Below are positions 2,641 through 34,221 of a stretch of DNA of 64,000 bases, in pieces (within the stretch, counting starts at the first letter, position 1; the number at the start of each line of letters is the position of its first letter). Source of the stretch: Polytrichum commune (Eukaryota; Streptophyta; Polytrichopsida; Polytrichales; Polytrichaceae); contig OX485804.1 of NCBI GenBank assembly GCA_950295325.1, forward strand, positions 13,640,001-13,704,000, in the 5' to 3' direction. The notes beneath the pieces were generated by a model. It worked only from the letters and a program-made list of their open reading frames with translations. It was not told the DNA's origin and searched no databases. Made by a program: the position numbers and the translations under genes.

Positions 2641-5050
2641 ACTTTGCTAAGAGGTTGTTGGATTCACAGTTGGAGGTCCCAGCTACGGTAGTTGAGGCAC
2701 GGAGCTTACTTAGTGCTCGGCCTTGAGTGACTGGGATAGATGACTCGGGAAGTACCGTTATAATATAAAGGGGGAATCCCATGGGTTACATTAGACTCGA
2801 AAGAGTTAGTTACCTAGGTTAGCATTTCATATTAGTTTAGATGATTAGTTCATTAGCAAGCTAGGAGTACTTTAGGATTGTGATGATTGGGAAGAGCGTT
2901 TATTAACGCTTGTAAGATTATCGTGGAATGGATTGGTGTGCAATTATGGATGGGAAATGTCATGGGATCACACTAGTTTGGTCAAATGGAGTTGTGGAAA
3001 TATGAATGTGATACCCATTCCCTCACCCGGACTAGGACGCTTAAGGGTGGGAGGTTTGGCCTCACACTTTGCATGGACACAATTAAGTTGTGTATTTCTC
3101 TTATTCTCCTTGATTCCGGTTTTGCATATTATTGCTTTCTAAAATTTCAACATATATCCTTTATAATTATCAACATTTTTGTGTCACATTCCTTATAAAA
3201 AAATCATTTCACTCCCTTGCAATTTTAATTATTTATAGTAAAAATAGCCCTCTACATCGGTACATTTTAGATATTTCATTAGAAATTCCATTTTGATTCA
3301 ATTACATTGAGTGTAATGGCACTTTAAATGACTAAACTAACAAAATAATCAACACAAGCCCAAAATGATTCTTCTAAGTACCCAAACTCACCAATGTATC
3401 AGGATCATATGTGATTATAAGTTTTTTTGGAGGTTTTATGAAAAATCTAAGCATTTTGTATGTGATGCATTAAACAAAATCATGGAAATAATCCCTAGGG
3501 GTGGACTCTTCTTCGAAACCTAAATCTTTTGAACCTTCATTCATTTTTCATTAGGCTTAATCTCCACACTTATTGTTCATTATTGTTTTCTCAGTCATGT
3601 GTGATTCTGTCCTATATGACGATTTCTATCACTTTAATTTCATACCTACTTATACAGTGTTGAAGCTCTTTAGCTTTTGTGATAGTCTTTTTCTTTGGCA
3701 ATCGTCTTTTGTATCTTGGCAATAGTCTTTCAATGGATTATCATCTTATTAGGGTTAGTATCTTCTTCCTTCATTAAAGTAATCATTTAATGTCATCAAT
3801 CGTAATTCAAATTTCATTGCTCAAAAGATGAATTCCTTCTCTTATTTCCTTTTATCATTTTCCTATAAACTAAACTCATTCATGAATTATCACACATATA
3901 GCATCTCAAACTGCAATCTATGCACATATTAAAATAAACATATATATATATAGTATTCTTCACTAACACAAATCTCAATTAGCTTAATCTTTATCACGTT
4001 AGTGCATTAAGTATAATATTTCATGAAATTCATAATTTAGTCTCTAGGCTTAAGGACTATGGACTTGCATCCCCATCTATCAACAACCCTAATATTTTTA
4101 ATTTTTTAGTTTTTTCCCCTTTCTACATTGTAACTCATTGTATCGTTTATTATGAAGGCTACAATTTTTTCATTTATGCTAATCCTCTCAGTGTTCCACT
4201 CACTGTCATGCTAACTACCTTCTAATGTCCTCACCTCACACAAGCCATTGGTAGTCTCTCATGGCTATGGCCTTTCTCATGCTTTCATAGTCTAACTCCC
4301 TAACTAAGATCCATGGCTTCCTTTATTAGGAACTTGAGACTATTGCCTCATTTTCTCAATGTAAAGTTCACACCTGATTATTGCTAACATCTAAAAAATT
4401 TGTATCACTCTTCGTTGATTCATTTCTTCCATCACATCCTTTAACTTTAGATTTCCATAGACATTCTCTATTTCATTTATGATTTAGTCTTTCAATCACA
4501 TGTTTTATCACTAGCAGTTCTTTCACTTAAGTTACACTTTGATTGTCACAATATTTATTAAGAACATTCATGCATTCAAAATCAATTTCGTTCACTCATT
4601 TTGCTTTTGATATTTCAAGTAATTTAGTTCAACTATGCGGGTGATATTTTGATTATGCAACCACTTCAGTTTACTCTCGCCTCAACAATACCCCTTCTTA
4701 CTCACGTTAGTTTCTACGTGTTATAGAGAGTCCATCCCTTGGGGAATCTTCTCAAAATAGCAAGTACATTAATATATTAATGCAATTGATTACATGGCAA
4801 CATCAAGTGATTCATACATTACTAATTAGTGTTGGGTGCAAGGACAATAAAGTGGACGACTCTTGATCCATGCATAGGTTTAAGTGGATTTTATTCAAAT
4901 TATGTACTAACTTTGAATTTTGTTTAAATTATATGTAAAACATTTTGAAAGCATAATGATGTATGAATCCAAGTAATTTATGTTGACACAACTATCTCAT
5001 AAAAGTGTACATAATTTAGAAGACGGCGCAAGTGGTGTGCAAATGGTGAT

Positions 5051-5060
5051 ATTAAGAAAA
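5051..5060. repeat. Target-site duplication, left copy (ATTAAGAAAA)
   Basis: This 10-bp sequence is repeated perfectly, in the same orientation, at 19758-19767. It sits immediately outside the matching inverted termini. MULEs typically create 8- to 11-bp duplications. Confidence 0.9.
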
Positions 5061-5086
5061 CAGGAATGCTACGATGTGAGCGGTGG
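5061..5086 (+). repeat. MULE left terminal inverted repeat
   Basis: Pairs with the reverse complement of 19732-19757. The inner 19 positions match except for two bases (GCTACNNTGTGAGCGGTGG), and the outer seven match at only three positions (the first two bases and one other). A GTGAGCAG copy follows at 5095-5102. Confidence 0.88.
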
Positions 5087-5290
5087 CAAATCTCGTGAGC
5101 AGAAAATCGAAATTTAAAACTCCATTTAACGAAAGTTAGGACCCCTATGACCGTGGATTTTGCACATATTTCAAGTTTAATTTTGGAATTATGAGGCCGA
5201 TATTTATGGAGTGCCTAATTTTTAGGACCAAAAGTTTCTAAAAATTACCAACGAGGCCCTATGGCCGTGGGAAAATTCAGTGTGGTTGAG

Positions 5291-5830
5291 AAGATGGTGG
5301 ACCTATGGGAAGAGGCCTCGGATCCGAGGCCTCTTAGTTGTGGGTAGCTTATGCTTGAAAATCAAAATGTTATGTATATTTGAGTTGGCTACTTGTCTTT
5401 GCATTCGGCCATTTCTTGTATGTGTAGTGCATGAGGAGGACCTATAGGAAGAGGCCTCGGATCCGAGGCCTCTTAGTTGTGGGTAGCTTATGCTTGAAAA
5501 TCAAAATGTTATGTATATTTGAGTTGGCTACTTGTCTTTGCATTTGGCCATTTCTTGTATGTTCTAGCATGAGGCGGACCTATAGGAAGAGGCCTCGGAA
5601 CCGAGGCCTCTTAGTTGTGGGTAGGGTGTGCTTGAAAATCAAAATGTTATGTATATTTGAGTTGGCTACTTGTGTTTGCATTTGGCCATTTCTTGTATGT
5701 TCTAGCATGAGGAGGAGGTTTGGAAAGAGGCCTCGGATCCGAGGCCTCTTTTTTGTGGGTAGGATATGCTTGAGAAATCAAAATGTTATGTGTATTTGGT
5801 TTGGCTACTTGTCTTTAGATTGTCTACTAG
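5291..5830 (+). repeat. Four tandem ~138-bp units, each with a 26-bp palindrome
   Basis: Four units with a 138-139 bp period. Each centres on a palindrome with arms AAGAGGCC and core CCTCGGATCCGAGG, at 5310-5335, 5449-5474, 5587-5612 (centre mutated to AACC) and 5725-5750. The intervening DNA (GTTGTGGGTAG, ATCAAAATGTTATGT, TTGGCTACTTGT) is nearly identical between units. The array lies close to the left end of the transposon and downstream of the minus-strand gene. A 153-codon frame at 5431-5892 merely reads through the repeats. Confidence 0.93.
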
Positions 5831-5954
5831 TTGACGACCACAAAAGTGTAGTGTTATTTGAGAACAACGACAAGATGCATTCAACAAGATAATTGGAATA
5901 TTGAAAACCACACCACACTTTATAAATCCAAATACCAATCAATCAAACCAAAAA

Positions 5955-8900
5955 TCAATCAACAATGACGTTGTCACTACTAGATTCCCTACTTCCAAAG
6001 ATACTCCCCTCATGGCCGCCCTCATCTGAAGAGGAATCTAAGGTATGGCATTCATTATCCACCTCTGCAAGAACATCGAAGAAGTCTAAGGCACGGGGGT
6101 CATAACGTGGAGACGGGGTACTAGCTTTGCTAGGAGAAGGTTGTGCCGCTAGTACCATCGCCATATCATGGGCATAGATTGGCAAAGAGAATCCCTTGGT
6201 AGGCGTACCAAACACATCCGCTCCAAGGCCAAGTCTGAAAACAAGCATGAAAATTGTAAGAAAAAGGATGGAAAATGTAAAAGCTAAGTGGACAAGGAAA
6301 AGAAGCAACTTAGAAGGTCATCATACTCACTTACTGCGAGGACTTTGGCCTCGATCGCTTCAAGGCCGGTGGCCTCTTCTGCGTGCCTTGTGAAGCCTGC
6401 GTGGAAGCAACAACAATGGATGGAGCCTTCACCGCAGGCTTAACACTCTTAAGTGGCTTAAGGACACGGTTGAAGGTGTCCTCGTCCTCCTCAAGAGCAA
6501 CAATATGGCGCCCAAGCTGCTTGCATGTATGGATAGAAGTCCCTGTTGCGGAGGAAATGTTAGCAAAGGAAAAAAAAAAAAAAAAAAAAACTTAGAAATT
6601 GAAAACTTGGATATGATGGCAAGTGAAGTAGGACATACCAACGCCCGCATTAACGTCCACCACAACCTGTCCAATGTCCGTAGTGGCCATTATCAAGGAG
6701 GACATGAAAGAAATATCTTTCTCCCGGGGACCACGCCAAGCTTTGGAGCCGTCCATGAGAGGAGTTACAGTATAATTCATAATCGCATCATCCATATCGA
6801 GCTCAATGCCAAGAGCCTTGAGCTCATTGGCATCGCGAAGGCGGAATGACGAGTGCCGGGGCCGCTTATCAAGGTCGGATCCAATTGTTTTGGTGGCACG
6901 AACAAGTAAGACAACCTGGAAGAGGTTGGTGGTCTTGTCCACATGTTTAGGTGAATGAAGGCGAAGACGGTTGACTCCCAGCCACTCCTTAAAGATCGTG
7001 AACCCAAAAGCAGCGAAGTGGTCTTGAATGCTCTCCTTGAAATCACCATTGTCATCTGCATGAAAGAGGAGGAGAGCTCCATCGTCATGCAGGATCTCAT
7101 CCGCAAAATCGAAGAGCTCACCTAGAAAATCGGTATCCAATGCATTCCAGGAAGGTACACTATAGGAAGGATCGGAGACATTGGGTACAGGCAGGTTCTC
7201 CGGGATGTCGGCAATGACAAGATCAGCCATGCCCACATCTAACCTCGCAACGCCTAGAGCTCTCCGCGGATAGGAGGGTGGAAGAGAAAGAATGAAGTTG
7301 GAAACCTCCTGAAAATGATGACGTTGATGAAGGATAGAGGCATTCAAGATGCATTCTAAAACAACGGGAGGACGCCTAGAAGATGAAAGAATGGGCGGAG
7401 GAGGTGGCCTGGATAGAGTAGGAACTTCACTAAGAGATGGAGTAGATGCAACTGCCGCCTCAGGTGAAGCAGGGGGAGGGGGATCATCCTCCACAGTCTT
7501 GAGCTTCCTCGCGCGCTTCTTGAGTGATGATTCGTCTTGAGTTGCACGCTTCCTCCTCTTGGACTTCTGTGTGTTGGCCTCATCGACAGTCGCAACAACC
7601 TCATCCGCCTCCGGAAGTTGACTGTCAAGGAGAACAACCTCATCGCTTTGAGCAGGAGGCAGGGAAGGTTCTCCACCGGAGAGCCGAATCTTCAACTCCG
7701 CCTCCTCATCCGGTTGCCACGTCCTCTTACATTCCAAGTACCAACAACACTCGCGGAGATGCGGGAGGGAGAAGTTGCGCTTTTGAGCCGGGGAAAATAT
7801 GAAGGTAGGTGAAGAGGAATCAGACCATGCATCAAGAAACGGAGGGAGCTTCTTCAAAGCCTTCTTCTTGAAGAGCTCATGCTTGATGTACCTTGACAAC
7901 GAAGGAGTGAGGCCAATTAGCAACTTAGAAAACAAATGGTTTGAAATAAATGAGGTGAACACAAGATTTTCCAACTAACGTACCTACAGATTAAGCGCTT
8001 GACAATGTTGTTAGCGCCTTTGACATCCTTCCACCACGTCCCCTTTCCGTATATATCTGACCCTGAGAAGTGACCAATGAACGCCTTATCCCAGAGACAG
8101 ATTCGCCACTTCTCCAAGTAATCCGGCAATGAATCAACTTCCACGTCTCCGTCAAGCCCACCCAAGGCATTAAGTATATCGGGTAACTCCTTGACCGCGG
8201 CATCCTCTAGCTGTGGATAAATTCAAGGCCAAGATAAGAATTGGCACAAAAGGAAGAGTTGAAAGGTAAGGATGGATAAGGAGTATAGACGTACCCCTGC
8301 CCAAAACGTAGCTTTATTGAGCCAAGGTTTCAAGGTGTCCTCGCTTGCAGGACTTTTGGGAAACCGGATAGCTTCATGATTGAAACTTCCACTGTTCCAC
8401 CACTTTAACCAACGGACTTTATACTCTGGCTCCACTGCAACTGTGGCAATAAGTTGCAATTTCTCCAATGTCATCTCAATCTTTTGAGAATGGTGGGCGC
8501 TATAATGCCTAGTAATCTGAAACACTTGCAATAAAAAAAAAAACGAAGTAAATTTAAGAATATATTCTTAGAAAGTGCTGCAAAGAATGCTAGCAGTAAG
8601 CCCTCACTTGAGACCTCTCCCATAAGCACATTCAAATCAAATCTATTTCAACTAAAAACTAACCTCTTAGGCCCCCTTCAAACCTCTCTGGTTAGCACCC
8701 TAACCAGAAATTTCTCAAAATACAACCATACAAGCCCTCACAATAGCCCTCAACAATAAGCTAAATCAAATCGATTTCAACAAAATGAATACCTCTAAGC
8801 CCCCCTAAGCCCTCCCCCACAAGCACCTTAGCTAGAAAATGCGAAAAAAAACCATCCCAGCCCTCACGTTAGCCCTCACCTCAGACCAAATTGAAGCAAA

Positions 8901-11900
8901 AAAAAATAACATGAGAGGTCCCCAAAGTGGCTACCCTGGGGCTGTCGGATCCGATAGAGGCCCAGGGCCCTCCCTTTGGAGCTCTCCCACTAGCACCTTA
9001 ACCAGAAATTCAAAAATTAAAACCATACAAGCCCTCACATCAACCCTCATTCATAACCAAAATCAAATCAATTTCAACTAAAAACAAGCCTCTAAGCCCC
9101 CCTTCAAACCTCTCTCATTAGCCCCCTAACCAGAAATTCAAAAATTAAAACCATACAAGCCCTTACCTCAACCCTCATCCATAACCAAAATCAAATCAAT
9201 TTCAACAAATTCGAAGCCTCTAAGCGCCCCTTCAAAGCTCTCTCATTAGCCCCCCAACCTGAAATTTCACAAAATACAACCATACAAGCCCTCACAATAG
9301 CCCTCAACAATAAAGACCTTTCCCATAAGGACATTCAAATTTAATTCAACCAAAACGTACCTCCTCTAGGAACTGTTTTCCAAGGGCGGGGTTTGCGATT
9401 GATTATTGTTTGTTAAACTTGTGCCCAAGTTCCTCAGTCGTCTTCTTAATCACAGCATCCAATACCTCACCCAACTTGTTCCCAGATTGCTCCTCTGGAG
9501 GAACTTCCTCTTTGTAGATTTGGGTTGCCTCATCTACCGCATCGGCTATCTCTTGCTGAACATATATTCAAAATTGTAAGATCATGATTAAGAGTAATGA
9601 ATGCGAAGTAGAAGGTTGAGGAATTTGGAGTGACTTACATTGAAAATGAAGGATACCATAAGGTCTTGGGTCAGCGGGTACCAAAGGCTCTTGGGGCCTC
9701 TACTCTTGCACGCTTGGAATTGCTCCTCCGTCAATAATGGCTGGTAGTAGCTAAGATCATACGAATCGTATTTTTGAATGCGGTGTAGAGTGTGTACGAG
9801 GCTAGTTTTAACGTGAGCGGTCTGGTTAGCCCTATTGCGGTTGAGACAAATGCCATTAGATGCCAATAAAAAAATGAAAGAAAAAACGATTTGAAAAACT
9901 AACATACTTACTTGTTGATGTCGTGCATTGCGTTAAGGACATCCCCACGCCCACCCGTTGTGTTGAGGACAACACATTCTGGGCAACCATGCTTCTCATA
10001 CCAAAGTGCATCGTCCTTGTGATCTGATTCGATATACTCCTTCCACGCAAGCAAGCGGTGGTTACCATCATACACGAAGAACATACATCCACTAAGGCTC
10101 ATCAAGTCCTTATCCGCGCGTAGAAAAGACTTAAACTTATCATTTTCTGCAACCCAAAGCTCTTCCCATTCACGCCTGTCTTTCGCAAAAATGAATCGAT
10201 TATCTCCAGACTCATTTGTAGTAGACACGTACAAAGTGGCAGACCCAGTTCGGTATCCAAATTGAAATGCCGCCATGAACTTTGTAACGTCGCTGCGGAG
10301 GGTTGGGCGAACCAATGGCATGTGAATCAACCTGCAGAGGGGGATTCTCATAGAGGACTTTTCTACCGGTTGTATCCTCATCCCTCAACAACTGAGAAGC
10401 TATCTTTTTTTAAATTGTGGCGAATCCGATACTCCATTGCACGAACACCGACATCCGATTCTGCAGGTGAGACGCAGAGTGGCATCCCGGATGTATAGGG
10501 TTCGCTACTACCTGGTGTAAGCCCAATATTTTTAGCAAGTGACAACGGAGACCCTTGTTCCTTATGCTCCTCAACACTAAGGGATGACTTAGCACCATTG
10601 CGAACCCCAACATCCAAAGACTCTCCATCCCCCACCATCTCAATGATCTCCTGAGAAGCAATTAGTTACAAAGGTGAGGACCAGCCAAATGAACAAAATA
10701 TGCATAAGAATGACCACTTTAAAAGGTTCCGAAGTGGGAACCCATTTGACCTCTCCCAAAAGCAAAGTCAAATAATTTGCAACTAAAACAAACCTCTCAA
10801 GCCATCACTTCAGCCCGCTCCCACTAGCACACTAGTTAGAAAAAAAAAAAAAAAAACCATACCCGCCCTCACCCATAAGCAAAGGCAAATCAATTTCAAC
10901 CAAAGCAAACCTCTAAGCCCCCCTTCAAAGCTCTTCCACTAGCACCTTAACCAGAAATTCCAGAAAAAAAACCCATCCAAGCCCTCACATCTGCCCGAGC
11001 CCATAAGCTAAATCAAATCTATTTCAACAAAAAGAAAACCTCAAAGCCCCCCTAAGCCCTCTCCCACTAGCCCCCTAACCAGAAAATTCACGAAATAAAA
11101 CAAAACAAGCCCACACATCAGCCCTTTCTCAAAGCAAAATCAAATCAATTTCAACTAAAAACTAACCTCTTAGGCCCCCTTCAAACCTCTCTCATTAGCA
11201 CCCTAACCCGAGATTTCACAAAATACAACCCAAAAAGCCCTCACAATAGCCTTCAACCATAAGCAAAATCAAATCAAATTCAACAAACACCAAACTTCTA
11301 AGCCCCCTAAGCCCTCTCCTACAAGCACATTAGCTAGAAAATTTGGAAAAAAAACCATACAAGCCCTCACCTCAGCCCTCACCTGAGACCAAATTGAAAA
11401 TAAATAAATAAATTGAGAGGTCCCCAAGATGGCTTCCAATGGGCTGTCGGATCCGAAAGAGGCCTAGGGCCCTCCCTTTGGAGCTCTCCCACAAGCACCT
11501 TAGCTAGAAAATTCAGAATTTAAAACCATACAAGCCCTCACCTCAGCCCTCATCCATACCAAATTGAAGCAAAAAAAAATATCGTGAGAGGTCCCCAAGG
11601 TGGCCACCAATTGGCTGTCGGATCCGACAGAGCCCTGGTCCAGCAGTGCCTGGGAGTGATTCCAGGGACTGCCAAGGTTCAAACAGGCATAACGTCGTCA
11701 ATACTTGTCTGAATGAATCAAGTGAGGGGTCCATCGGCATCTACGTGAAGCGTAGATGAAGATGGAGTGGTTGGTTGTTCAAATCAGACATAATACAAGA
11801 AAGTTATGATGGTCTGAAGCTGCTGGGTCCCCAAGATGGCTTCCAATGGGCTGTCGGATCCGACAGAGGCCTAGGGCCTTCCCTTTGGAGCTCTCCCACA

Positions 11901-14696
11901 AGCACCTTAGCTTGAGAATTCAGAATTTAAAACCATACAAGCCCTCACCTCAGCCCTCACCTGAGACCAAATTGAAACAAAATAAATAAATTGAGAGGTC
12001 CCCAAGATGGCTTCCAATGGGCTGTCGGATCCGACAGAGGCCTAGGGCCCTCCCTTTGGAGCTCTCCCACTAGCACCTTAACCAGAAATTCAAAAATTGA
12101 AATCAAACAAGCCCTCACCTCAGCCCCCATCCATAACCAAAATCAAATCAATTTCAACTAAAAACAAGCCTGTAAGCCCCCCTTCAAACCTCTCTCATTA
12201 GCCCCCTAACCAGAAATTCAAACATTATACAACCATACAAGCCCTCACATCAGCCCGAGCCCATATGCAAAATCAAATTGATTTCAATAAAATGAATACA
12301 TCTAACCCCCCCTAACCCCTTCCCCACAAGCACCTTAGCTAGAAAATTTGAAAAAGAAAACATCCAAGCCCTCACATCAGCCCTCACCTCAGCCCAAATT
12401 GAAGCAAAAACAATATCTTGAGAGGTCCCCAAGGTGGCTACCCTGGGGCTGTCGGATCCGACAGAGGCCCAGGGCCCTCCCTTTGGAGCTCTCCCACTAG
12501 CACCTTAACCTGAAATTCAAAAATTAAAACCATACAAGCCCTCACCTCAACCCTCATTCATAACCAAAATCAAATCAATTTCAATAAAAAACAAGCCTCT
12601 AAGCCCCCCTTCAAACCTCTCTCATTAGCCCCCTAACCAGAAATTCAAACATTATACAACCATACAAGCCCTCACATCAGCCCGAGCCCATATGCAAAAT
12701 CAAATCGATTTCAATAAAATGAATACATCTAACCCCCCCTAAGCCCTTCCCCACAAGCACCTTAGCTAGAAAATTTGGAAAAAAAAAAACATCCCAGCCC
12801 CCACGTCAGCCCTCACCTCAGCCCAATTGAAGCAAAAAATATATATCTTGAGAGGTCCCCAAGGTGGCTACCCTGGGGCTGTCGGATCCGACAGAGGCCA
12901 GGGCCCTCCCTTTGGAGCTCTCCCACTAGCACCTTAACCTGAAATTCAAAAATTAAAACCATACAAGCCCTCACCTCAGCCCTCATCCGTAACCAAAATC
13001 AAATCAATTTCAACAAATTCGAAGCCTCTAAGCCACCCTTCAAAGCTCTCTCATTTGAACCCTAACTAGAAATCTCACAGAATACAACCATACAAGACCT
13101 TACATCAGCCCGAGCCCATAAGCACAATCAAATCTATTTCAACCAGATCTAACCTCTCAAGCCCCCCTTCAAAGCTCTCTCATTAGCAACTAACCAGAAA
13201 TTCCAGATAAAAAACCATACAAGCCCTCACATCAGCCCTCACCCATAAGCAAAATCAAATCTTCTTCAACCAGAACTAACCTCTCAAGCCCCCCTTCACA
13301 GCTCTTTCGTTTGAACCCTAACTAGAAATCTCACAAAATACAACCATACAAGCCCTCACATCAGCCTGAGCCCATGATCAAAATCAAATCTATTTCAACA
13401 AAAAGACAACCTCTAAGGCCCCCTAAGCCCTCTCCCACAAGCACATTAGCTAGAAATTTTAAAAAAAAACCCATGCCAGCCCTCACGTCAGCCCTCACCT
13501 CAACCCAAATTGAAGCAAAAAAAAAAAACTTGAGAGGTCCCCAAGGTGGCTACCCTTGGGCTGTCGGATCCGACAGAGGCCAAGGGCCCTCCCTTTGGAG
13601 CTCTACCACTTGCACCCTAAACAGAAAATTCATAAAATCTAACCATACTAGCCCTCACTTCAGCCCTGTCCGAAAGCAAAGTCAAATGGATTTCAACTAT
13701 AGCCAACCTCTAAGCCCCCCTTTGGAGCTCTCAAACTAGCACCCTAACCACATATCACATTCAAATCTTATTCAACCACATTATACCATTCTACTTAAAA
13801 ACAAAACAAAAAAACCTCTCAGACCTCACTTCAAACCGCTCTCAAAGGCACCCTCAAATTAAATTTATACCACATAATAAACATTTGCGAGGTTCTTTAG
13901 TGGGCTCTCCACGGTCTGTCGGATCCGACAAAGCCCCAGGGCACTCACTTCGGACCTCTGTAAGGAGGACCCCAAAATCGGCTCAAAAATTACCTCTTAT
14001 ACCTCACTTGAAAACTCTCACAGGACGACCCCCATATCATATTACCACAAAATGAATCTTTTAGACCTCACCTCAGACCTCTCCACTGGGCTACCACTGC
14101 CCTTCCCTCGAGTCTCTCCCCCTCTCCAACTCGTGGCTGCAACCCTGACCGCTGAGTGAAATCCTCGTATGCAGAGGAAAACCCTAGTTCTAAGATTTGT
14201 TGTAATGCGAAGAACGATGGTAGGTTAATGTTGCGGCAGTCTTGTTCCCTTCCCCTTCCGACGGTGTCATTGTGACCACCCTTTGGATGGTCAGTGCTTC
14301 GACAAGCCCGCACTTGCTGCCTTCGCTAGCTCACGATGACTACCCCTAATTTCTAGTGCATATATGTTTTCATCGACTTGAGGTTCATACCTGGGTCTCG
14401 CAAATTCTCGATAGATCATGTGATTTTGGGAACTCCACTTGTCTGGTCGTACCCACTCCAACTCCCTTCCTAGCAATGTCTTCACCACTCTGAGTCTGGC
14501 TTCTCCGTGTACGAGACCTTGACCGTGTGTGGTCTGGGGAGAATTCCAATGCCTTCACTGTGTTGTTTAAGTTATCATATGGTTGTTTTGGCTGTCTCAT
14601 CCTAGATGCCCTTATTTGCTTCCTGTTTGAGAAAAATGCCTTCCTCCTCCTCTTCGCCTTTGGTTTCACTAACTCTAGTGGCGAAGACCCTGTCAT
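5955..14696 (-). CDS. ParB-like / DNA methyltransferase-like fusion protein of the transposon
   Basis: Nine exons are proposed (minus strand): 14696-14391, 10650-9912, 9831-9639, 9555-9466 (tentative 3' edge), 8516-8295, 8210-7984, 7891-6639, 6542-6335 and 6234-5955. Every junction has GT-AG ends and phases agree. The sum closes in frame at about 1171 residues once two single-base homopolymer shifts in exon 2 are discounted (T7 at 10405-10411, G5 at 10339-10343). Order in the protein: a basic, nuclear-localisation-like start (KPKAKRRRK); a ParB/sulfiredoxin-like region (about 200-350) with FVYDGNHRLLAW; a charged linker; a permuted methyltransferase fold from about 750, with motif-IV position reading ADIPEN instead of DPPY; and motif I near residue 1009 reading VDVNAGVGTS, followed by CKQLGR and ALEEDED. 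It ends in an acidic tail. In bacteria such fusions methylate adenine or cytosine. Here DNA binding may persist without catalysis. The gene could be partly decayed. Confidence 0.75.
6335..7891 (-). other. Permuted DNA methyltransferase-like domain (two exons)
   Basis: The exon at 7891-6639 holds the catalytic half (ADLVIADIPEN ... ILHDDGALLLFHADD ... FGFTIFKEWLGVNRLRL ... TNLFQVVLLVRA). Its end carries GQVVVDVNAGVG, which splices in phase into 6542-6335 to give TSIHTCKQLGRHIVALEED. This order (catalytic half first, SAM-binding motif I last) is that of beta-class N4/N6 DNA methyltransferases such as CcrM, where motif I reads like D-x-FAGSGTT followed by A-x-x-LGR and E-x-D. The usual DPPY tetrad and the F of FxGxG are both replaced, so catalysis is doubtful. 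Confidence 0.75.
8583..9370 (+). repeat. Intronic satellite-like repeats, block 1
   Basis: Composed of the same phrases as the larger block at 10690-14060: AACCATACAAGCCCTCAC, AATCAAATCAATTTCAAC, CCTCTAAGCCCCCCTTC and CTCTCCCACTAGCACCTTA. One palindrome copy (variant, 8942-8957) lies here. The block falls inside a proposed intron of the ParB/methyltransferase-like gene and has no coding frame of its own. Confidence 0.85.
9912..10381 (-). other. ParB-like domain exon
   Basis: The frame reads IPLCRLIHMPLVRPTLRSD, then a long helical/charged stretch, then FVYDGNHRLLAWKEYI. This matches the ParB/sulfiredoxin pattern: an N-terminal specificity strand with a conserved R, then the G-x-x-R-x-x-A box. 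The 3' edge is a strong donor (AA followed by GTAAGTATG, minus strand) joining in phase to the exon at 9831. ParB family members bind CTP, or act as nucleases or sulfiredoxins. Which activity applies here cannot be read from sequence. Confidence 0.75.
10690..14060 (+). repeat. Intronic satellite-like repeats, block 2
   Basis: About 3.4 kb of diverged repeats filling the first intron (14390-10651) of the minus-strand gene. Units consist of GAGAGGTCCCCAAGGTGGCT, a 16-bp palindrome, GGGCCCTCCCTTTGGAGCTC and AT-rich spacers. Palindrome spacings of 171 (twice), 427 and 430 bp reveal higher-order units of about 428 bp. Short frames inside, such as 13374-13739, are repeat artefacts. Confidence 0.9.
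11444..13931. repeat. Cluster of 16-bp palindromes CTGTCGGATCCGACAG
   Basis: Perfect copies lie at 11615-11630, 11851-11866, 12022-12037, 12449-12464, 12879-12894 and 13561-13576. One-base or few-base variants lie at 11444-11459 and 13916-13931, with another outside this cluster at 8942-8957. The palindromic core TCGGATCCGA is shared with the 26-bp palindromes at 5310-5750. The palindromes are conserved while the spacers between them vary, which suggests a binding site, though recent amplification could also explain it. Confidence 0.85.
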
Positions 14697-15489
14697 GTAA
14701 CTGACCCGACTTCACAAATTCTACACTGCCCTCCTTTGTGAACATCTCCCTATCAATGTATGTGTCTCGCCTGGGTTACATCTACACTTATATTCCATCT
14801 CATAACCTCCTTCACATAATCTCGATGTATGGTGATTACAGTCTAGTTGCTATAAACATATACGGAATCATAAAAAGGAACACTTATAGAATGAACACCG
14901 ATGTTTAATAACATGTATTGAAATCATCCAGGAAAGATCTAAATTTAAGGAGCATCATGCTTTATAAAAATAATGGATGATAGTACACATGACAATACAT
15001 ATTTCAAACGAAACTAAATGAAATAAATAATCTGTATAGCCATAAATTGACGATCCTCTTCCAACTAAACTAACCTATTCTGGCTTAAAGGTGAATGCTC
15101 TACCCTTGCCCACTAATAAAGAAACACTTTCCTTTAGGGTGTCCCTTACATCCACTAAATGGTTCACGTGGTCTGGTGTATTAATAAATTCGCGAGTCGG
15201 CATCCAACCTCATTGTTTGGTTTTGATATATCTGGTTTGGATTGGCATATGATCATGACTAACTTAAGTAAATGCTGTAGTGCATTTTCAATTCTTATTC
15301 ACATTGCTATAATGAATCGGCTTATTATTCCCCTACTAATCCAAGTCCCCGCCGTCATTCACAGATCCCATCTTGCCATGGCCTTCTAATCACAACACTA
15401 TATACACCTCCCCACTTTGTGCTAATCCTTAAGTCCATTGCCCATTTGGCCACACCCTTCTGTGTACTCGCATTTACATTCCTTCTACA
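14697..15489. promoter_or_regulatory. Divergent promoter region of the transposon
   Basis: This 793-bp interval separates the ATG of the minus-strand ParB/methyltransferase-like gene (14694-14696) from the ATG of the plus-strand transposase (15490). No other gene is supported in it, so it presumably carries both promoters and 5' leaders. I could not single out a reliable TATA element. Confidence 0.45.
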
Positions 15490-18400
15490 ATGGCCACCAT
15501 CCGAGCACTGCACCATTCCATCCCCCTTATGATCCCTCTTGGAGATGATGGTCTAGCCAAAGTCGTGGAGTCGTTCCTTAGTCTGAGGTTTAGATTCCAC
15601 CCAGACTCAATTCATGTCGAGGAAGAGGTCTTTGATGACAACGGTGACTTGAGTCACACTGTCCTTCAGATGTCCTTTCGCATTGACGATGGTAGGGTTT
15701 GGTTCTTGCTCCCTCCAAAGTACAAGGCCATAGGCGTCACCGAGTCGGAGATGGCCACCACTACTGTGTTGCTAACACCAGGCGTGTCCCTCACCTCCAC
15801 CACGCAGGCTCCTCTTCTGGCAACGGTCAAAAAGGAGCCCGACATCCAAGAGGTTACCTTGCTCAGTGATGACTATGATGATGATGTGCCACCTGCCTCT
15901 GACTTTGCCTCACTTACCCCACCTCCATCGCAGGATCAACCCTTCATCAATCCTCTCAGGATTCCACACTCGCCTACTGTGAGTCAACCACCTACTTCCA
16001 GACCCCCAGTTCACCCAGGTGTCTCCATAGATCGTCCCAGTGTTGTCCAGCAATTGAAGTTGCTTGCAACCCTACCAGGGTCCAAGAACATCCTCAAGAG
16101 TATTGATTATGAATTTGTTAGGCATGAGAAGGTTGACTTCCTCCCATCTGTTTTTGACGGCGACGTCATCTTTGAGTTCCCTCCTCTGGGAGCTGATGCT
16201 CCCCATTCCCATGCTAGACTCATGTTCGGAATGGACAAGCGTTTCGACGGTCATGCTTGGTGTAGGACAAAGACGTCTAACATTACCAATGATCTCGGCT
16301 TGACCTTCCAGTTTTCATGTTGTGTTGGCCATCTCTGCTGTCATAACGAGGGATGTGATTATCTCAACCGCCCCAATCGAGCCACTGACGTCAACGAGAC
16401 CGAATGGGAAGGTTGTACCGCCTCACCCTTCACCGCAGATGCTGATCCCCCAGCTGAGTCATCTCTCGTTTGTAAGGTCTGTAAAACACCACCCTATTGT
16501 CTTGATACTTGCCAGGCTAAGATGTACTATGTTCTTGGCAGAGGTGACATGACCCGTGCATGCATCCATATGGGTCATCACCATCACCCCGTTTCGCAAG
16601 GTGTCTGTAGAGAGTCTAAGGTCAAAATTCATGATCTCATTGGTAGAGAGGTTGAAAGGACTCCCACCGCCACCAACTCTGCCATTGCATTGGCTGCAAG
16701 TAAAGAGTTCCTGGCCAAGTATCTTCTACGCACGGGATCTGATCCCAATAAAGTTATGGACCTGGAGTCCATGAAGTTTGTCATGGACAGGTACCAACAC
16801 CTCAGCACCCCGAGTATTCGAAACACTGTCACTTCCTTCAAGCGCATTGGGCGAGGGGGGATCATTGACAGCATCACCGGACTCAAAGGTCATAGCAGTT
16901 GGCCCTATGTGCAAGAAAACAAATTCCCAGGCCAAGGAAAGCTATTGGAGAAAGTCTATGTGTTCAAGATGTCTAAGGTGGGCCCTGGCTCTAGAGTTGA
17001 CATTGTCAGGAGAATGCAACCACACGGTGATTTGCAGGATGCTTGGGTCATGTTTGACCATGTCAAACGTGTCAAGGGGTGGACAACCATGGCTTGCCAT
17101 GTCTATGACTCGGCCTACTGCCGGGTTATGACTATTGCAGTATGTGATATGCAGTCTGAGGATGTCACGGCGCAAAGCCTTCTTTGGCATGGGCTCAATG
17201 AAGTTATGCTCAGACATGGCATTGCTAAAATTAACTTCAAAGGGTTCATGGCGGACAGTGCACAGGCCAATTGGAATGCAGTTAGGATTATCTATGGCAG
17301 CGGTGATCCCAAGGTTCCTATGGAGTCTCGCGAGAGGACATGTCTATTGCATTGGACAGTGTCTATGGAGCGCCACACTGCCACCCACATCAAGCCCGAC
17401 CTCCAACAACAACACAAGTTGTTATGCAAGCAGTACAAGGATGCCAAGACTCCCGAGCAGTCCGAGTCCCGTTATCTTGCCATCCGGGCATGGTGGCTTT
17501 CCTCTGGAGCTGCATCCGAGGAAGGAATCAAGGACCTTGATACATGGCTTGCATTCTGGCATTTTCGTTACCGTCAATGGGGTGGTTTCATGCAACTAGT
17601 GAGTACCCACCCACTTTCTATTTCACTTTTTGGTGTCAACTTTTTTTTTGGTTTTTTGGTGTCAGTTTTGGCTTTTAGCGTGTTTTTGTGCAAGGCGTAC
17701 TCACCACATTTTATTGACTTCTCTCAGAATTTCACAGATTCTGAGTTGGCAGAGACGCCATCTTGCAACCTCTCTGAGACAGTCCATAACAAATGGCTTC
17801 AGCAGTCTGGAAACCGTGGCTCTGATCTATATGTTGCGACCGTGGATGATTTTGTGAGGGCGTTCATGCAATGTACGAACTACTACGCCTACTTGAAGGG
17901 TGAACGGTCTGGCACTGGCCCAGGAAAAGAAGAACTCCGCCTTCGTGCTACACAACGATCCGGTGACGCCAAGAGAATTGTTGCAGCCCTCGAGCACATG
18001 CCTGGAGCAGAGCATTGGTGCACCCGCAAACCCCAACTCGAAGGAGAGGAGGTCTTTGGCACCACCAAGCGCAAACTTGATATGCCCCCTGGTTCTGAGC
18101 AGGATTCACATAGACCCGACAAGGTCAGCTTCTCTCATCCACGAGTGAGCACTAGGTCAACCAAGGCACACACTGATTCCGCCACACCATCAAACCTGCC
18201 CCTCACACAATCCCCCGAGAAATCGATTCCACAACGGGTCACCCACGTCAATAACATTCAGGAGACCCACTGCGATGTCTCCAAGTGGCACATTTCTAGA
18301 TTGCCCAAGACTTCCGCCAAGGCCTGCTTCGCCATGCAAGCTCGCACAAAGACCAAGTGCACCCAGAAGATCGTTCGGCATGGTAAAAGTACCCCAACTC

Positions 18401-19137
18401 CTACGTACACCGGCTACATGCGCGACTACAAGAAGAACAAGGAATTCTTGACACAGTTCTTCTTGTGCAACGACGACATTGAGAGATGTGTCAAAGGCAC
18501 TAGGAGGAAGTGGGTGCAGCACCGTCCGGATGTCCCGGACGTCTGGCCTGTCCTCACTGGGACAAACCTCACTCTCCAGGAGGTTCTGGCCCTTGAAGAA
18601 GGGGGATTCCAACTTCAGCAGCGTCAAGATGTGTCACCCATAAGACTCTTCGGCGACTCCTCCAATGTTGCTTCATCCATGGCCGAACTCCCTACCCCGG
18701 CCCAAGCCAATCAATACCCTACGCTGAGGTTTGGAAAAAAGATCCGGCGCAGTAACAACGGACCATGCGTCCAACAACGCAACAAGTGGGAGTCAGCCCT
18801 CAACGTCGACGGTCAAATCACCTCCGTCACAATGATACCTCACCCAGGGATCAGGTGCATCATTTTGTTCCAGTCCCGAAAGAAGGCTAAGGTTGAAGAG
18901 TACCGTATCACTATCAGCACCTTCCCGTCGTGCACGTGCCCGGATTTCGTGGAGATGTCAGCAAGAGCACTTGGGAAGCGGCGCCCTTGGGTGAACTGCA
19001 AGCACTTGTACTTCATCTTCCGTGTGACCTGCAACTTGGATCAATACCAAGACACTTTCATCCATGCTCCGAGCCTTAGTTTCAATGAAGTGAAGCACCT
19101 CCTCAAAAGTGGCATCATGAAGCATGTGGGACCTTAG
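15490..19137 (+). CDS. MULE transposase with GCM-like zinc region and SWIM finger
   Basis: An open frame of 1215 codons. A typical plant intron is embedded at 17599-17727 (CTA before GTGAGT, very T-rich, ending CTCTCAG). It is 129 nt, a multiple of three, so the spliced product is about 1172 residues. Order: an acidic/proline-rich start; a Cys/His-rich region around 277-373 (CCVGHLCCHNEGCDYL, CKVCKTPPYC, ACIHMGHHHHP) resembling the WRKY-GCM1 zinc fold; an RNase-H-like core with candidate acidic residues D523 (VMFDHVKR) and D589 (FMADSAQANWNAV), then CLLHW; and a C-terminal SWIM finger (CTC at 1148-1150, NCKH ending at 1172). WRKY-GCM1 plus MULE plus SWIM is a known transposase architecture. 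It should bind the terminal repeats and move the element. The third acidic residue was not pinned down. No stop or frameshift is seen, so it may be active. Confidence 0.85.
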   Translation: MATIRALHHSIPLMIPLGDDGLAKVVESFLSLRFRFHPDSIHVEEEVFDDNGDLSHTVLQMSFRIDDGRVWFLLPPKYKAIGVTESEMATTTVLLTPGVSLTSTTQAPLLATVKKEPDIQEVTLLSDDYDDDVPPASDFASLTPPPSQDQPFINPLRIPHSPTVSQPPTSRPPVHPGVSIDRPSVVQQLKLLATLPGSKNILKSIDYEFVRHEKVDFLPSVFDGDVIFEFPPLGADAPHSHARLMFGMDKRFDGHAWCRTKTSNITNDLGLTFQFSCCVGHLCCHNEGCDYLNRPNRATDVNETEWEGCTASPFTADADPPAESSLVCKVCKTPPYCLDTCQAKMYYVLGRGDMTRACIHMGHHHHPVSQGVCRESKVKIHDLIGREVERTPTATNSAIALAASKEFLAKYLLRTGSDPNKVMDLESMKFVMDRYQHLSTPSIRNTVTSFKRIGRGGIIDSITGLKGHSSWPYVQENKFPGQGKLLEKVYVFKMSKVGPGSRVDIVRRMQPHGDLQDAWVMFDHVKRVKGWTTMACHVYDSAYCRVMTIAVCDMQSEDVTAQSLLWHGLNEVMLRHGIAKINFKGFMADSAQANWNAVRIIYGSGDPKVPMESRERTCLLHWTVSMERHTATHIKPDLQQQHKLLCKQYKDAKTPEQSESRYLAIRAWWLSSGAASEEGIKDLDTWLAFWHFRYRQWGGFMQLVSTHPLSISLFGVNFFFGFLVSVLAFSVFLCKAYSPHFIDFSQNFTDSELAETPSCNLSETVHNKWLQQSGNRGSDLYVATVDDFVRAFMQCTNYYAYLKGERSGTGPGKEELRLRATQRSGDAKRIVAALEHMPGAEHWCTRKPQLEGEEVFGTTKRKLDMPPGSEQDSHRPDKVSFSHPRVSTRSTKAHTDSATPSNLPLTQSPEKSIPQRVTHVNNIQETHCDVSKWHISRLPKTSAKACFAMQARTKTKCTQKIVRHGKSTPTPTYTGYMRDYKKNKEFLTQFFLCNDDIERCVKGTRRKWVQHRPDVPDVWPVLTGTNLTLQEVLALEEGGFQLQQRQDVSPIRLFGDSSNVASSMAELPTPAQANQYPTLRFGKKIRRSNNGPCVQQRNKWESALNVDGQITSVTMIPHPGIRCIILFQSRKKAKVEEYRITISTFPSCTCPDFVEMSARALGKRRPWVNCKHLYFIFRVTCNLDQYQDTFIHAPSLSFNEVKHLLKSGIMKHVGP
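17599..17727 (+). other. In-frame intron in the transposase gene
   Basis: Donor GTGAGT at 17599, acceptor CTCTCAG ending at 17727, length 129 nt and no stop codon. The translation of this segment is hydrophobic and T-driven (FFFGFLVSVLAF), unlike the rest of the protein. Retention or splicing would give two isoforms differing by 43 residues. Confidence 0.75.
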
Positions 19138-19731
19138 CGTGGATAACTATAGGAGCTAGGCTGCCCCCCCCCTTATTTATAAGTTGTCGCTAAGTATTAT
19201 TGCGTTGAGTATACTATAGTATGAGTGCACGTTTTCCGAAAATATTGCTGATATATCAGACCTATCATTATCTACATGATGTGAATTGTATTCGTTTTTA
19301 AATATCTATAAAGGTTTCTAAATATTTATGGGTCTCTCCTTCCAACAATAGTTTTAGATGTTATTGAATGGTACGAGTTTTGCTACTTTGATTGAATGCT
19401 TGAATTTTTTGATTTAGAATTTTCTCTTACGTTGTGACCATAGCCTATGATTAACCGGCTCTCACCATAATATGGACAGTCAAAAGTTCCCTAGTTTAAG
19501 TAAATCATGTCAACTAGTCTCTCTGAAAGGTACCCTAAAACCAAGTCTTTGTCCTGAAAGCCCTCAAAATTTGCACGGAAATAGGTCCATCATTTTTACT
19601 AAAAAAAGAGGTCCCACAAATTTCTATTTATATTTTCTAAATTTGGAAATTTTATTACTATAATTGGAAAGCGTTGACTTTTTTCTGCTCACCGTGAGCA
19701 GATTTTCTACTCACCGCTCACCGCTCGCGTC

Positions 19732-19757
19732 CCACCGCTCACACGGTAGCGTCGTTG
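19732..19757 (-). repeat. MULE right terminal inverted repeat
   Basis: Reverse-complement partner of 5061-5086. Inside it, 19685-19731 holds further copies of GTGAGCGG/GTGAGCAG in both orientations, including a short inverted pair CTGCTCAC...GTGAGCAG at about 19685-19701 that could form a hairpin. Confidence 0.88.
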
Positions 19758-19767
19758 ATTAAGAAAA
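19758..19767. repeat. Target-site duplication, right copy
   Basis: Perfect direct copy of 5051-5060 (ATTAAGAAAA), lying directly outside the right inverted terminus. Confidence 0.9.
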
Positions 19768-31388: not shown

Positions 31389-34221
31389 ATAGTTGAAATC
31401 TGCACACACCCACCAACCCCATCACATCCAACACAACTGACCACTCCCGTACACATAAAAAACAACCCAATAAAATACTCTATACACTCAATAATAGACC
31501 ACTGCATAAAACCAACTACAGATAAATACAAAATTATAAAAAACCAACATATATACCTATGTCAATGGGTACTACCCAATGGAACAATATATATCAAAAA
31601 CCTTCCACAAAGAGAATTATTCCCCTACAATCTCCCAAGAGTCATACAACACAACTCAAACTTAATACTCACATACTACACCAAAACACAACATAAAATA
31701 TACAAAAACATCATGAACGGAAATGACATGTTCACCCAAAACAAAGACCCCAAGCACGTCTCTCCTCCCCTAAACATCCCACTCGTGAAAATCTCAACAC
31801 ATGAATGTAACCCTGAAAAAGACATCAACACTAATACAAACAAAATCCAAATGCAAAATGATTATGCTCATATCTACGATGAAACAGGTAAACGCATTAT
31901 CACCATTCCACACAATAGACTTGTATGGCTATGGAACCAATACAATCGTACATTACATCAACCACACGACCTAATACCCCCTACTCAAACATTTGAAATC
32001 GAAATAACCTGGCTATATCAAACATACAAACACAAAATACCGAAAAATAATCCATTAAAAAACGCACACCATTCTATGCCCAAAACACTATTAGACTACA
32101 TCACAACATCCTTTGAAATCACACACTCTTATTTCTCATCCCCAGTCACATGCTCAACCCATCTAACAAAATTCTTCTCACCATTTCCTAGAGATAAAAT
32201 CTTCGGGTCCATCGGTAACGCATTCTCACACAAGTGGCAAGGAATAGGATACGCCCACCCACACAATGAAATTGAAGCCCAAAAAGCAATCCATTGGGCC
32301 AGACTAGCAGCGAAGCAAGATCCATACACCACCACCATACTTATCATCCCATACCCGAATTGGTACCAGAACTTTACACCACATTTAGGTCCCTTCCCAG
32401 ACACACATGTAATCACTCAAATACCAGTAGACACCACCAAATATGAAGAACCTACAAGACCACAAGAATCCAATGAGCCACGTGTAGAACCACTCACCAT
32501 AAGAATCCTATGCGTACATCACCAAAACAATAGTATCAGCAATATAGAACAAATGAACACAATAAGAAATATATGCAACAACCTGAACATATCCCGCACA
32601 ATCACCCAAATTGCCCCCCCTACCCCACAAAATCTAGAAGTCAACAAATGTAAAACATGGAATACCCTCACCTACCCAAATCCAAGCACACACCTACATA
32701 ATACAATCCCACAAATTCCCAACTATGAAAACGAAACACCACTCAAATTCCCCTCCAAATATTGCTTCTACACAGATGGATCCTTTAACCCCCCCAAAAA
32801 GATAGGAGATAGTTGGCGGAGAGAAGAAGTTGGATACGGTATATATAACCAAGAAAAAATTATCAAACTTGCACTACGACTACCAGGCCTACAAAACATA
32901 TTTCGAGCAGAACTAATGGCCATGCACCATATCCTTAAAATAATAATGAAATGACTTCCCAAATGAACCAGCACATATTTTCACAGACTGCCTTAACGGC
33001 CTATATGTAATCAAAACCCAAATAAAACACCCCACACTACACAATAACCACCCCGATAAAACTATCTTAGAAGAAATAGTGAACTTTCTTACACAGAGAA
33101 CCCAACCCACAACACTATACAAAGTAAGAGCACATGCAAACATCAAAGGTAACGAAGAAGCCGACACACTTGCTAAAAAAAGGACATCAAAAGAACACTA
33201 CAATGCCTCTCAACCATACGAATTTGGCCACTCAACGCCGTACTACCAAAGAGACACATGGCCATCAATGGGAACAACCCCAGACAAAGGACCCATTAGA
33301 TTCCTAGAAAAACATCTAGTAAAGTACAATATGAATATAAATTTAGAATTGATCCCTGTAAAATACCCCAACATAGATAAATGGATAGCCAATGATAAAA
33401 TAGATAATGAACTATCAAATAAATTTTGGACAAACAAAAACATAACTGACTCCCAAAAAACATGTCTTCTAAAAGACACGGTCAATACATGGGAAATGCC
33501 AGGAAACATTTGTTCTTCGGAAGAGAAGCTTTTCCATCAATTACATGCCCCATATGTGACTCAACAGACCCGGATACATGGCTGCATGTACTTCTAAAAT
33601 GCAAACAACACCACATTCATGCCCTCCGTACCAAAAGACACAATAAAACAATATGGGAATTAAGAAAACTTAAAGTGTCATCAAAAAAAGTCAAGATGTT
33701 ATATTCTCATGAATGCAGGAACATTCAATAATAAGCCCCCAGAAAACACGGTCCCTTCATGGATATTACAGTGTATATGTGGCCAACAAAGATGTCATTG
33801 CAATGCCATATTCAAACCAGATCTTCTATGTGTAAAAGGACTACCATATCAATCCTCACCCCCAATAGAACCTAATGACAACCTAACAATACAATTCATT
33901 GAATTTACATACTGTAACGATAGAATACATGATGAAACTATAAACCGTAAAATAGAAAAATATAAACCATTAATGGACAATATTGCCAACAAAGGTTGGA
34001 AGATAGACCCACTAATTGTCATCACTGCAGGCGCTAGGGCTGCCACACATATCCCCTCTATGGATAACATTGAAACAACATTTAAAACCCCTAAGCAGAG
34101 CATCAAGAACACATTTGAGGCAATTAATGTCATCGCTATACAATATGCTATGTCCATAATTATGCACAAAAGAAGGATAGAAAATAACGAGCCAATACCA
34201 CTTGACACACAACTACCTTAA
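31389..34221 (+). pseudogene. 5'-truncated LINE with RNase H domain, frameshifted
   Basis: The frame is open from 31389 to 32954, then shifts at the A-rich spot 32949-32951. It continues at 32950-33597, then 33462-33731, then 33709-34221. RNase H is recognisable: CFYTDGSF (Asp), FRAELMAM (Glu), then across the shift HIFTDCLNG (Asp), and KVRAHANIKGNEEADTLAKK. A zinc-binding CPICDSTDPDTWLHVLLKC follows, then a conserved LINE tail (IQFIEFTYCNDR, PLIVITAGARAATH, HKRRIENNEPI). The reverse transcriptase and endonuclease are absent. Upstream of RNase H, FGSIGNAFSHKWQGIGYAHP and ILIIPYPNWYQN look faintly like a DNA adenine methylase fold; I hold that loosely. Base use is strongly A/C-rich on this strand, unlike the neighbours. 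Confidence 0.82.

Follow-up and report, generated by a model that had tools for sequence, protein, structure and literature searches.

A DNA transposon of the moss Polytrichum commune with arrays of a symmetric site and a spliced gene that joins a probable ParB-like domain to a methyltransferase fold

A stretch of 64,000 nucleotides from the moss Polytrichum commune (GenBank assembly GCA_950295325.1, contig OX485804.1, forward strand positions 13,640,001 to 13,704,000; hereafter the window, to which coordinates refer unless another source is named) contains a large DNA transposon with two recognised genes, one transposase-like and one spliced from nine exons that joins a probable ParB-like domain to a permuted N6/N4 methyltransferase fold. 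Among the copies of the element in the genome the ParB-like exon is under purifying selection, and two introns of the gene as well as the DNA behind its 3' end hold copies of the symmetric site TCGG-N2-CCGA, mostly in tandem arrays. We cautiously favour the reading that the gene encodes an accessory protein for self-recognition or anti-silencing, which would work in a manner similar to VANC of the VANDAL transposons and differ from it in architecture.

The transposon and its spliced gene

The ends of the element were searched over 700 x 1200 pairs of start and end positions, requiring a duplication of at least 8 bp and at least 15 of 26 identical positions in the terminal repeats, and 5061/19757 was the sole match besides its own one-base shift (Table 1). 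Two other copies, on contigs C5 and C3, start at the equivalent of 5061 and stop at the equivalent of 19757; they are 15,458 and 14,681 bp long and are flanked by their own 10-bp duplications, CTTAGTACCC and ATCATAACTT, the latter also readable as 11 bp. Target-site duplications of 10 bp were thus found in all three copies examined, within the range of about 9-11 bp that serves as a criterion for Mutator-like elements (MULEs), and terminal inverted repeats, another such criterion, are present in the window copy, where their 26 bp are short for a MULE. The transposase-like open reading frame (ORF) is matched by no Pfam model, including MULE or SWIM at E<=10, and its CxxH and C-x-C...C-x-H patterns were recognised by eye only. 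Hence, the probable assignment of the element to a large Mutator-like DNA transposon family is based on the duplication length and on motifs of this kind. The same ORF is broken mid-frame in both other full copies, and the transposase-like gene therefore probably has two exons. All ORFs of at least 150 amino acids within the element belong to these two genes, lie in repeats or occupy other frames of the genes; no ParA-like gene was noticed among them, no ParA profile search having been made.

Furthermore, more distant copies were fetched from the genome, namely d58 and L057 (58% identical) as well as d45 (with gene copies a and b), L058, L059 and L060 (38-45%). A divergently oriented transposase accompanies seven of the nine gene copies for which the ParB-like exon and its context were fetched (window, c1, c2, d58, L057, L058 and L059), down to 38% identity in exon 2; the upstream part of d45b lay outside the fetched DNA.

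The second gene runs on the minus strand from 14696 to 5955 and would specify a protein of about 1,200 residues, in which a basic N-terminus is followed by the ParB-like domain, about 500 family-specific residues and the S-adenosylmethionine (SAM) methyltransferase fold. All eight introns are of the GT..AG type and the frame is kept over every junction. The splice 6639|6542 connects VVVDVNAGVG to TSIHTCKQLGRHIVALEEDEDTF, so that an intron interrupts the methyltransferase motif I region. The window copy is damaged: its exon 2 has a single frame break, located ahead of the ParB frame, and its exon 4 contains a single in-frame stop. In this state it is unable to specify the complete protein; at both places other copies are open. 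The nine exons align in phase in three copies and were also matched in order in a 58%-identical copy. Exon 1 has the same length and donor in both other full copies examined, one of which is interrupted by just one in-frame stop between the start of exon 1 and the terminal stop codon, and the other contains two stops and two altered acceptors. A first-pass annotation, made from the letters of the window alone, had proposed nine exons spliced in phase, with exon 1 (14696-14391) as tentative; the exons were confirmed at the same positions. Its claim that both halves belong to one spliced gene inside a DNA transposon was likewise borne out by the duplication, the terminal repeats and the transposase-like gene in three copies.

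Table 1. Features of the transposon and of its ParB-methyltransferase gene in the window
Feature	Position	Strand	Remarks
Target-site duplication, left	5051..5060	.	ATTAAGAAAA
Whole transposon, 14,697 bp	5061..19757	.	sole end pair found; 2 further copies with matching ends
Left terminal inverted repeat, 26 bp	5061..5086	+	20/26 identical to right repeat
3' tandem array, 138-bp units	5299..5816	.	4 sites TCGGNNCCGA (5318, 5457, 5595, 5733), three within the perfect palindrome AAGAGGCCTCGGATCCGAGGCCTCTT
Exon 9	5955..6234	-	Ser-rich, acidic C-terminus; stop codon 5955-5957
Exon 8	6335..6542	-	second half of motif I region, TSIHTCKQLGRHIVALEEDEDTF
Exon 7	6639..7891	-	basic/Pro-rich linker, then permuted methyltransferase domain; motif-IV position ADLVIADIPENL, motif I start VVVDVNAGVG
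Exon 6	7984..8210	-	
Exon 5	8295..8516	-	
Intron 4	8517..9360	-	one TCGGATCCGA site at 8945
Exon 4	9361..9555	-	one in-frame stop in the window copy
Exon 3	9639..9831	-	follows the ParB-like exon
Exon 2	9912..10650	-	ParB-like domain (probable), IPLCRLIHMPLVRPT ... VYDGNHRLLAW ... ECVVLNTTGGRGDVLNAMHDIN; frame break upstream of the domain
Intron 1	10651..14390	-	tandem arrays with 8 TCGGATCCGA sites (11447-13919), 6 of the 8 as CTGTCGGATCCGACAG
Exon 1	14391..14696	-	start codon, basic N-terminus KPKAKRRRKAFFSNRKQ
Transposase-like gene	15490..19137	+	divergent from the ParB-methyltransferase gene; probably two exons
Right terminal inverted repeat	19732..19757	-	
Target-site duplication, right	19758..19767	.	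ATTAAGAAAA

Scanning the genome (407.8 Mb in 64 contigs, G000) with the ParB-like exon gave at least 150 scored matches from 1,078 candidates, with identities from 100% down to 41%; they correspond to 146 places (four copies are split in two), which is a lower bound. The ratio of nonsynonymous to synonymous substitution rates (dN/dS) was calculated for this exon in the 30 best-scoring of the 150 copies and had a median of 0.176 (median dS 0.274) among the 366 pairs, out of 435, whose dS exceeded 0.02; this value is biased downwards, as the copies are the top of a score-ranked set, and its pairs are non-independent. Eighteen of these 30 copies are open across exons 2-4 (three are without verdict), and five of the 18 have CG in place of AG at the mapped acceptor of exon 2. 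The other exons differ by too few changes between the window and the two full copies for a statement on selection. Protein homologues found elsewhere comprise 54 matches to the ParB exon and 30 to the methyltransferase exon. The full-length protein had no scoring match as query in the protein search and domain-sized queries did match, probably because the relatives are stored as single-exon pieces. Four of the ParB-like relatives (P0081-P0084, 37-40% identity) lie on contigs of 64-741 kb, which suggests that the family is present in other assembled genomes.

The two halves of the protein

Judged by its profile matches, the second half of the protein has the fold of a permuted N6/N4 methyltransferase, and its motif IV is non-canonical. 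After splicing, the METHYLTRANSFERASE half matched the Pfam family N6_N4_Mtase (PF01555) with an E-value of 1.5e-5 and 25.5 bits, under the cut-off of 26.7, and among solved structures DpnA (1.3e-4) and CcrM (2.9e-4); phrog_498 was matched at 2.5e-7 over residues 11-232 of 242, nearly the entire domain. The unspliced exons of the window gave no match to the N6_N4_Mtase family. Moreover, an hhalign comparison of 24 plant rows with 11 phage and plasmid methyltransferases scored 46.4 over 188 columns (probability 87%), compared to 20.9 for the best of 100 column shuffles, and its register places ADLVIADIPENL over ANLIVTDPPYNV and VVVDVNAGVGT over VLDPFGGSGS. The plant rows were the spliced sequence of the window plus 23 homologues; the window row without splicing was left out, as were 7 homologues that are truncated or frame-shifted. 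The spliced window sequence has SAM motif I after motif IV, which is the permuted order. These matches and the hhalign score uphold the permuted methyltransferase fold that had been proposed from the letters alone. At the motif-IV position, 26 of 31 homologue rows read D-x-P-[E/D] and the other five NIAE, DIFE, DISD, DISN and DIPK; five divergent sequences from genome copies have DLPE (two), DIPE (two) and DAPE, and the motif was not found in the stretches of L059 and L060 first fetched. The canonical form [DNS]PP[YFW] is absent from all 31 homologue rows and all five divergent genome sequences, which makes ordinary N6/N4 catalysis doubtful, despite the kept motif I.

Exon 2 likely holds a ParB fold. 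Of the 33 rows in the ParB alignment, 30 contain its GNHR, as does each of the six divergent genome copies for which exon 2 was fetched. Weak matches to the ParB-like family phrog_1033 were obtained for 18 of the 33 members (best E 0.038), 14 members matched an unknown family at similar strength, and two matched DndB/DGQHR models (best E 0.07-0.19). When compared with 16 phage and plasmid proteins, GNHR was aligned on ParB box II (G-x-x-R) in nine of the 16 pairwise alignments, one of the nine being judged by eye. The 16 proteins outrank 77 decoy ORFs taken from their own loci (p = 1.5e-4), with the top score coming from the 16 and the second and third from decoys. Pfam ParB_N confirms 13 of them at E<=0.01 (not L009, L010 and L017), and the 13 alone gave p = 5e-4 against the decoys, an optimistic value because they are mutually related. 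Taken together, the motif, the domain order and these weak profile statistics make the fold probable. Scans with the ParB-like alignment yielded pattern matches of which none was confirmed as a relative (0/31 in prokaryote genomes, 0/40 in IMG/VR), a tblastn search of phages and plasmids with the ParB-like part found no relative and three plasmid matches at chance level, and PADLOC returned one stray match.

The tblastn search of phages with the methyltransferase half gave weak matches (best E 6e-4), five of which were opened. According to Pfam, L001, L002 and L003 (E 0.04-0.6) are fusions of ParB with a methyltransferase and L004 is a methylase that lacks ParB; L005 is unannotated; the order of ParB followed by methyltransferase is common to the moss gene and the three fusions. 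According to a survey of the ParB-CTPase fold, fusions of ParB with N6/N4 methyltransferases are common in phages, and words starting with "plant" are absent from the survey's main text (PMC12704722). These phage and prophage fusions resemble the moss gene in having a ParB-like domain upstream of a permuted methyltransferase and in residing on mobile elements. They differ from it in that the moss gene has nine exons, about 500 residues between the domains and a non-canonical motif IV, and is part of a eukaryotic transposon. We assume that the protein probably derived from a ParB-methyltransferase fusion of prokaryote type, which may have been acquired horizontally, as the first-pass annotation proposed.

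Arrays of a symmetric site

TCGG-N2-CCGA occurs 13 times in the window and always within the element, four times in the 3' array, once in intron 4 and eight times in intron 1. When the units of the two window arrays are aligned, only the 10-bp core is common to them. Tandem arrays just upstream of the ParB-like exon, in intron 1, were found in all six fetched copies with that exon; for d45b, the fetched DNA covers exons 5-8 only, and the test was applied to the part upstream of exon 5. Combined with spacers of 0-4, the 256 half-sites make 1,280 patterns, all of which were counted in seven representatives (window, d58, d45a, d45b, L058, L059 and L060, with d45a, d45b, L059 and L060 each taken as separate) and in 68.7 kb of background. 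TCGG-N2-CCGA, which had been spotted first in the same data later used for this test, has at least three sites in five of the seven representatives, at least one in six and none in the background, and no other pattern reaches at least three sites in more than two representatives.

The bases around the core vary. The arms differ among all seven array types that were typed (GCTG/CAGA, GGCC/GGCC, GTGG/CCAC, TGTT/AACA, GGTT/AACC, TGTC/GACA and TGTG/GACA) and are complementary at three or four of four positions, and the centre can be AT, AC, AA, GC, GA, TC, CC or GG. By a measure of perfect inverted repeats, the site-bearing units of the window, d58, d45a, L057 and L059 beat their shuffles (0-3 of 100 shuffles as good), and the L060 unit, owing to a mismatch at one position of the arms, was not above them (60 of 100). 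In the near subfamily, each of 30 ParB loci, 3.4 kb in length, has at least one TCGG-N2-CCGA. The longer form CTGTCGGATCCGACAG occurs at 374 places in the genome and its backward control at none; among the first 50 of the 374 places, 46 lie within 10 kb of a listed ParB match and four at 36-44 kb. The latter four sites (C1:14070221-14078033 of G000) perhaps mark a decayed or non-autonomous copy.

Some divergent copies carry other repeats. In L058, the perfect palindromes CCTGTGCGTTAACGCACAGG and GTTTGGGTCGGCCGACCCAAAC take the place of TCGG-N2-CCGA at 4922-6100. A 45%-identical copy (L055 and L056 joined) has an 18-bp site, TGTTTCGGGCCCGAAACA, at 6076-8597; its half-site TGTTTC resembles the half-site of bacterial parS, a likeness that may be due to chance and does not extend to spacing and centre. 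The same joined stretch has, at about 11499-12083, a 3' end and terminal repeat of the window type, 94-96% identical, beside a gene of only about 45% identity, which may mean that subfamilies have exchanged ends or that a remnant adjoins the gene. A 26-bp 3' palindrome common to this copy and the window was therefore rejected as a case of independent conservation, since about 580 bp around it are 94-96% identical and point to a shared or exchanged end.

Interpretation and alternatives

In the reading that we lean towards, the protein, probably as a dimer, would bind the TCGG-N2-CCGA arrays on copies of its own subfamily, and the arrays would act as a mark of self. The methyltransferase-like part would then be a DNA- or SAM-binding module or would carry out an altered DNA modification instead of acting as an ordinary N6/N4 methylase, and the non-canonical motif IV makes a methylating role less likely. 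Elements bound in this way could stay accessible, be shielded from host silencing or be regulated according to copy number. Generally, a DNA-binding protein of two-fold symmetry would favour sites that are symmetric, have a free centre and change their arms in a near-symmetric way, and arms that change between arrays yet stay nearly symmetric fit a coevolution of protein and site between subfamilies. Because the element has two recognised genes and the sites lie in the introns and the 3' array of the ParB-methyltransferase gene, we infer that the product of this gene is their likeliest binder. That it recognises its own element and keeps it accessible is suggested by analogy with VANC. DNA binding, silencing escape and element maintenance had been put forward as roles in the first-pass annotation, and the palindrome arrays favour one of the first two.

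Several results, besides the selection of the dN/dS copies and the origin of the site pattern mentioned above, speak against this reading. The ParB-like half has no significant match in Pfam, NCBIfam or PDB, global-mode hhalign of this part gave no signal, and its profile comparison with the 16 phage and plasmid proteins reached a probability of only 4% (P 0.0097) in the expected register, with shuffle controls as good in nine of 150 cases and in none of 150 only once a 53-residue insertion was removed. Hence, the ParB domain claimed at the outset has gained support from the conserved GNHR, the domain order and the rank tests, but not from any significant profile match. For the methyltransferase half, three unspliced homologues gave no methyltransferase in Pfam at E 0.1, and a profile of the methyltransferase homologues (A2, rows mostly without the spliced C-terminal part) retrieved no methyltransferase among solved structures, the matches being six unrelated chains with a best E of 0.24. 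TCGG-N2-CCGA is missing from L058, which has other palindromes instead. In the window-type arrays the core is intact in 20 of 20 units, yet 51 of the 73 other columns are invariant too. Finally, no transposase was found in d45a or L060 within the 20-kb stretches fetched.

Exon 2 could contain a transposon-specific domain with a GNHR that arose by chance, fused to a degenerate methyltransferase. The missing profile significance and the weak hhalign scores would suit such an origin, which we regard as unlikely in view of the register and the rank tests, the phrog_1033 matches of 18 members and a domain order that is also that of the phage fusions. A further alternative accepts the domains and assigns the arrays to the transposase or a host factor, the ParB-methyltransferase gene being employed otherwise or carried as captured cargo. 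The arrays do lie in non-coding stretches of the transposon, and gene capture by MULEs is described in the literature; however, the place and exon order of the gene are kept in copies at 38-58% identity, purifying selection acts in the near subfamily, and the sites cluster in the introns and the 3' array of this gene and not in the terminal repeats or the transposase gene, so that we judge this explanation distinctly unlikely.

Still less probable to us is an active N6-adenine or N4-cytosine methyltransferase that modifies the DNA of the element at or near TCGG-N2-CCGA, with the ParB-like part as its targeter. Retention of the SAM-binding motif I, DpnA and CcrM as closest solved structures and the GATC within window-type sites agree with an active enzyme, but the canonical motif IV is absent from every homologue row and divergent genome sequence inspected, and the variable centre means that GATC is not a general part of the site. 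We give least credence to the idea that the palindromes are a by-product of tandem-repeat growth, arising through hairpins or recombination hot spots with no binding protein involved. Tandem repeats are abundant in the element, palindromes can form cruciforms and the L058 arrays have palindromes of another kind. However, arrays built from otherwise different units share the same eight bases around a free centre, and the site-less 128-bp units of the window type and the 54-bp unit of L059 show no inverted repeat beyond shuffles.

A more specific form of the self-recognition reading is a eukaryotic system of parS type, in which a nucleotide-switched ParB-type clamp with a repurposed methyltransferase fold would load at the TCGG-N2-CCGA arrays, spread along the element, mark the copies of its own subfamily and shield them against silencing by the host, protein and site coevolving through symmetric arm changes. 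We offer this tentatively and hold it to be rather unlikely. Bacterial ParABS has in common with the element a ParB-like protein and arrays of symmetric sites; it differs in the spacing and centre of the sites, and in the element no helix-turn-helix was recognised and no ParA-like gene noticed.

Other known systems share traits with the moss element. VANC of Arabidopsis VANDAL causes a loss of methylation, and the motifs to which it binds form tandem repeats upstream of the transposase gene as well as in introns both of the VANC gene and of a sister gene (PMC5735166). VANDAL is also a DNA transposon with further genes beside the transposase, an element-specific short motif is tandemly repeated in introns and other non-coding parts, the arrays gain and lose units between copies, and the motifs differ between families; unlike the site described here, the VANC21 motif YAGTATTAY is non-palindromic, and the portions used describe no ParB-methyltransferase protein (PMC5735166). 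Retrotransposons with C5 cytosine methyltransferases in dinoflagellates and charophytes likewise have a methyltransferase-type domain on the element, also in the streptophyte lineage, but they are retroelements whose C5 enzyme is host-derived and was shown to be active (PMC5890265). Fungal DNA transposons with TET/JBP dioxygenases carry a gene for a DNA-modification enzyme as well, in this case a dioxygenase acting on methylcytosine, which belongs to another enzyme family (PMC12730594).

Elsewhere in the window, an ORF at 31389-32954 (+) has a match of the PCIF1 WW-domain type (2.3e-9) and a weak one to RNase H, and is perhaps another mobile element with a methyltransferase-related domain. A host gene with long introns at about 40849-50383 (+) encodes a PI4-kinase (Pfam PI4K_N, PI3Ka); an initial identification as MED33 was rejected on these Pfam matches. 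An unrelated tandem repeat array lies outside the element at 2071-2627.

Among the entries listed in searches of the open-licence literature for ParB together with transposons, methyltransferases or plants, no description of such an element was found. What appears to be new are the protein architecture and the symmetric site, and transposon-encoded self-recognition or anti-silencing is a kind of system already known. To our knowledge, few transposon-encoded systems in plants tell self from host DNA, and VANC is the model for them. If our reading holds true, the moss element would represent a second solution to self-recognition, built from ParB and methyltransferase folds, and it would add a eukaryotic mobile element to the prokaryotic ones that use the ParB fold. 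Moreover, with a symmetric site that can be read in several subfamilies of the same genome, the coevolution of a transposon protein and its target would become directly testable.

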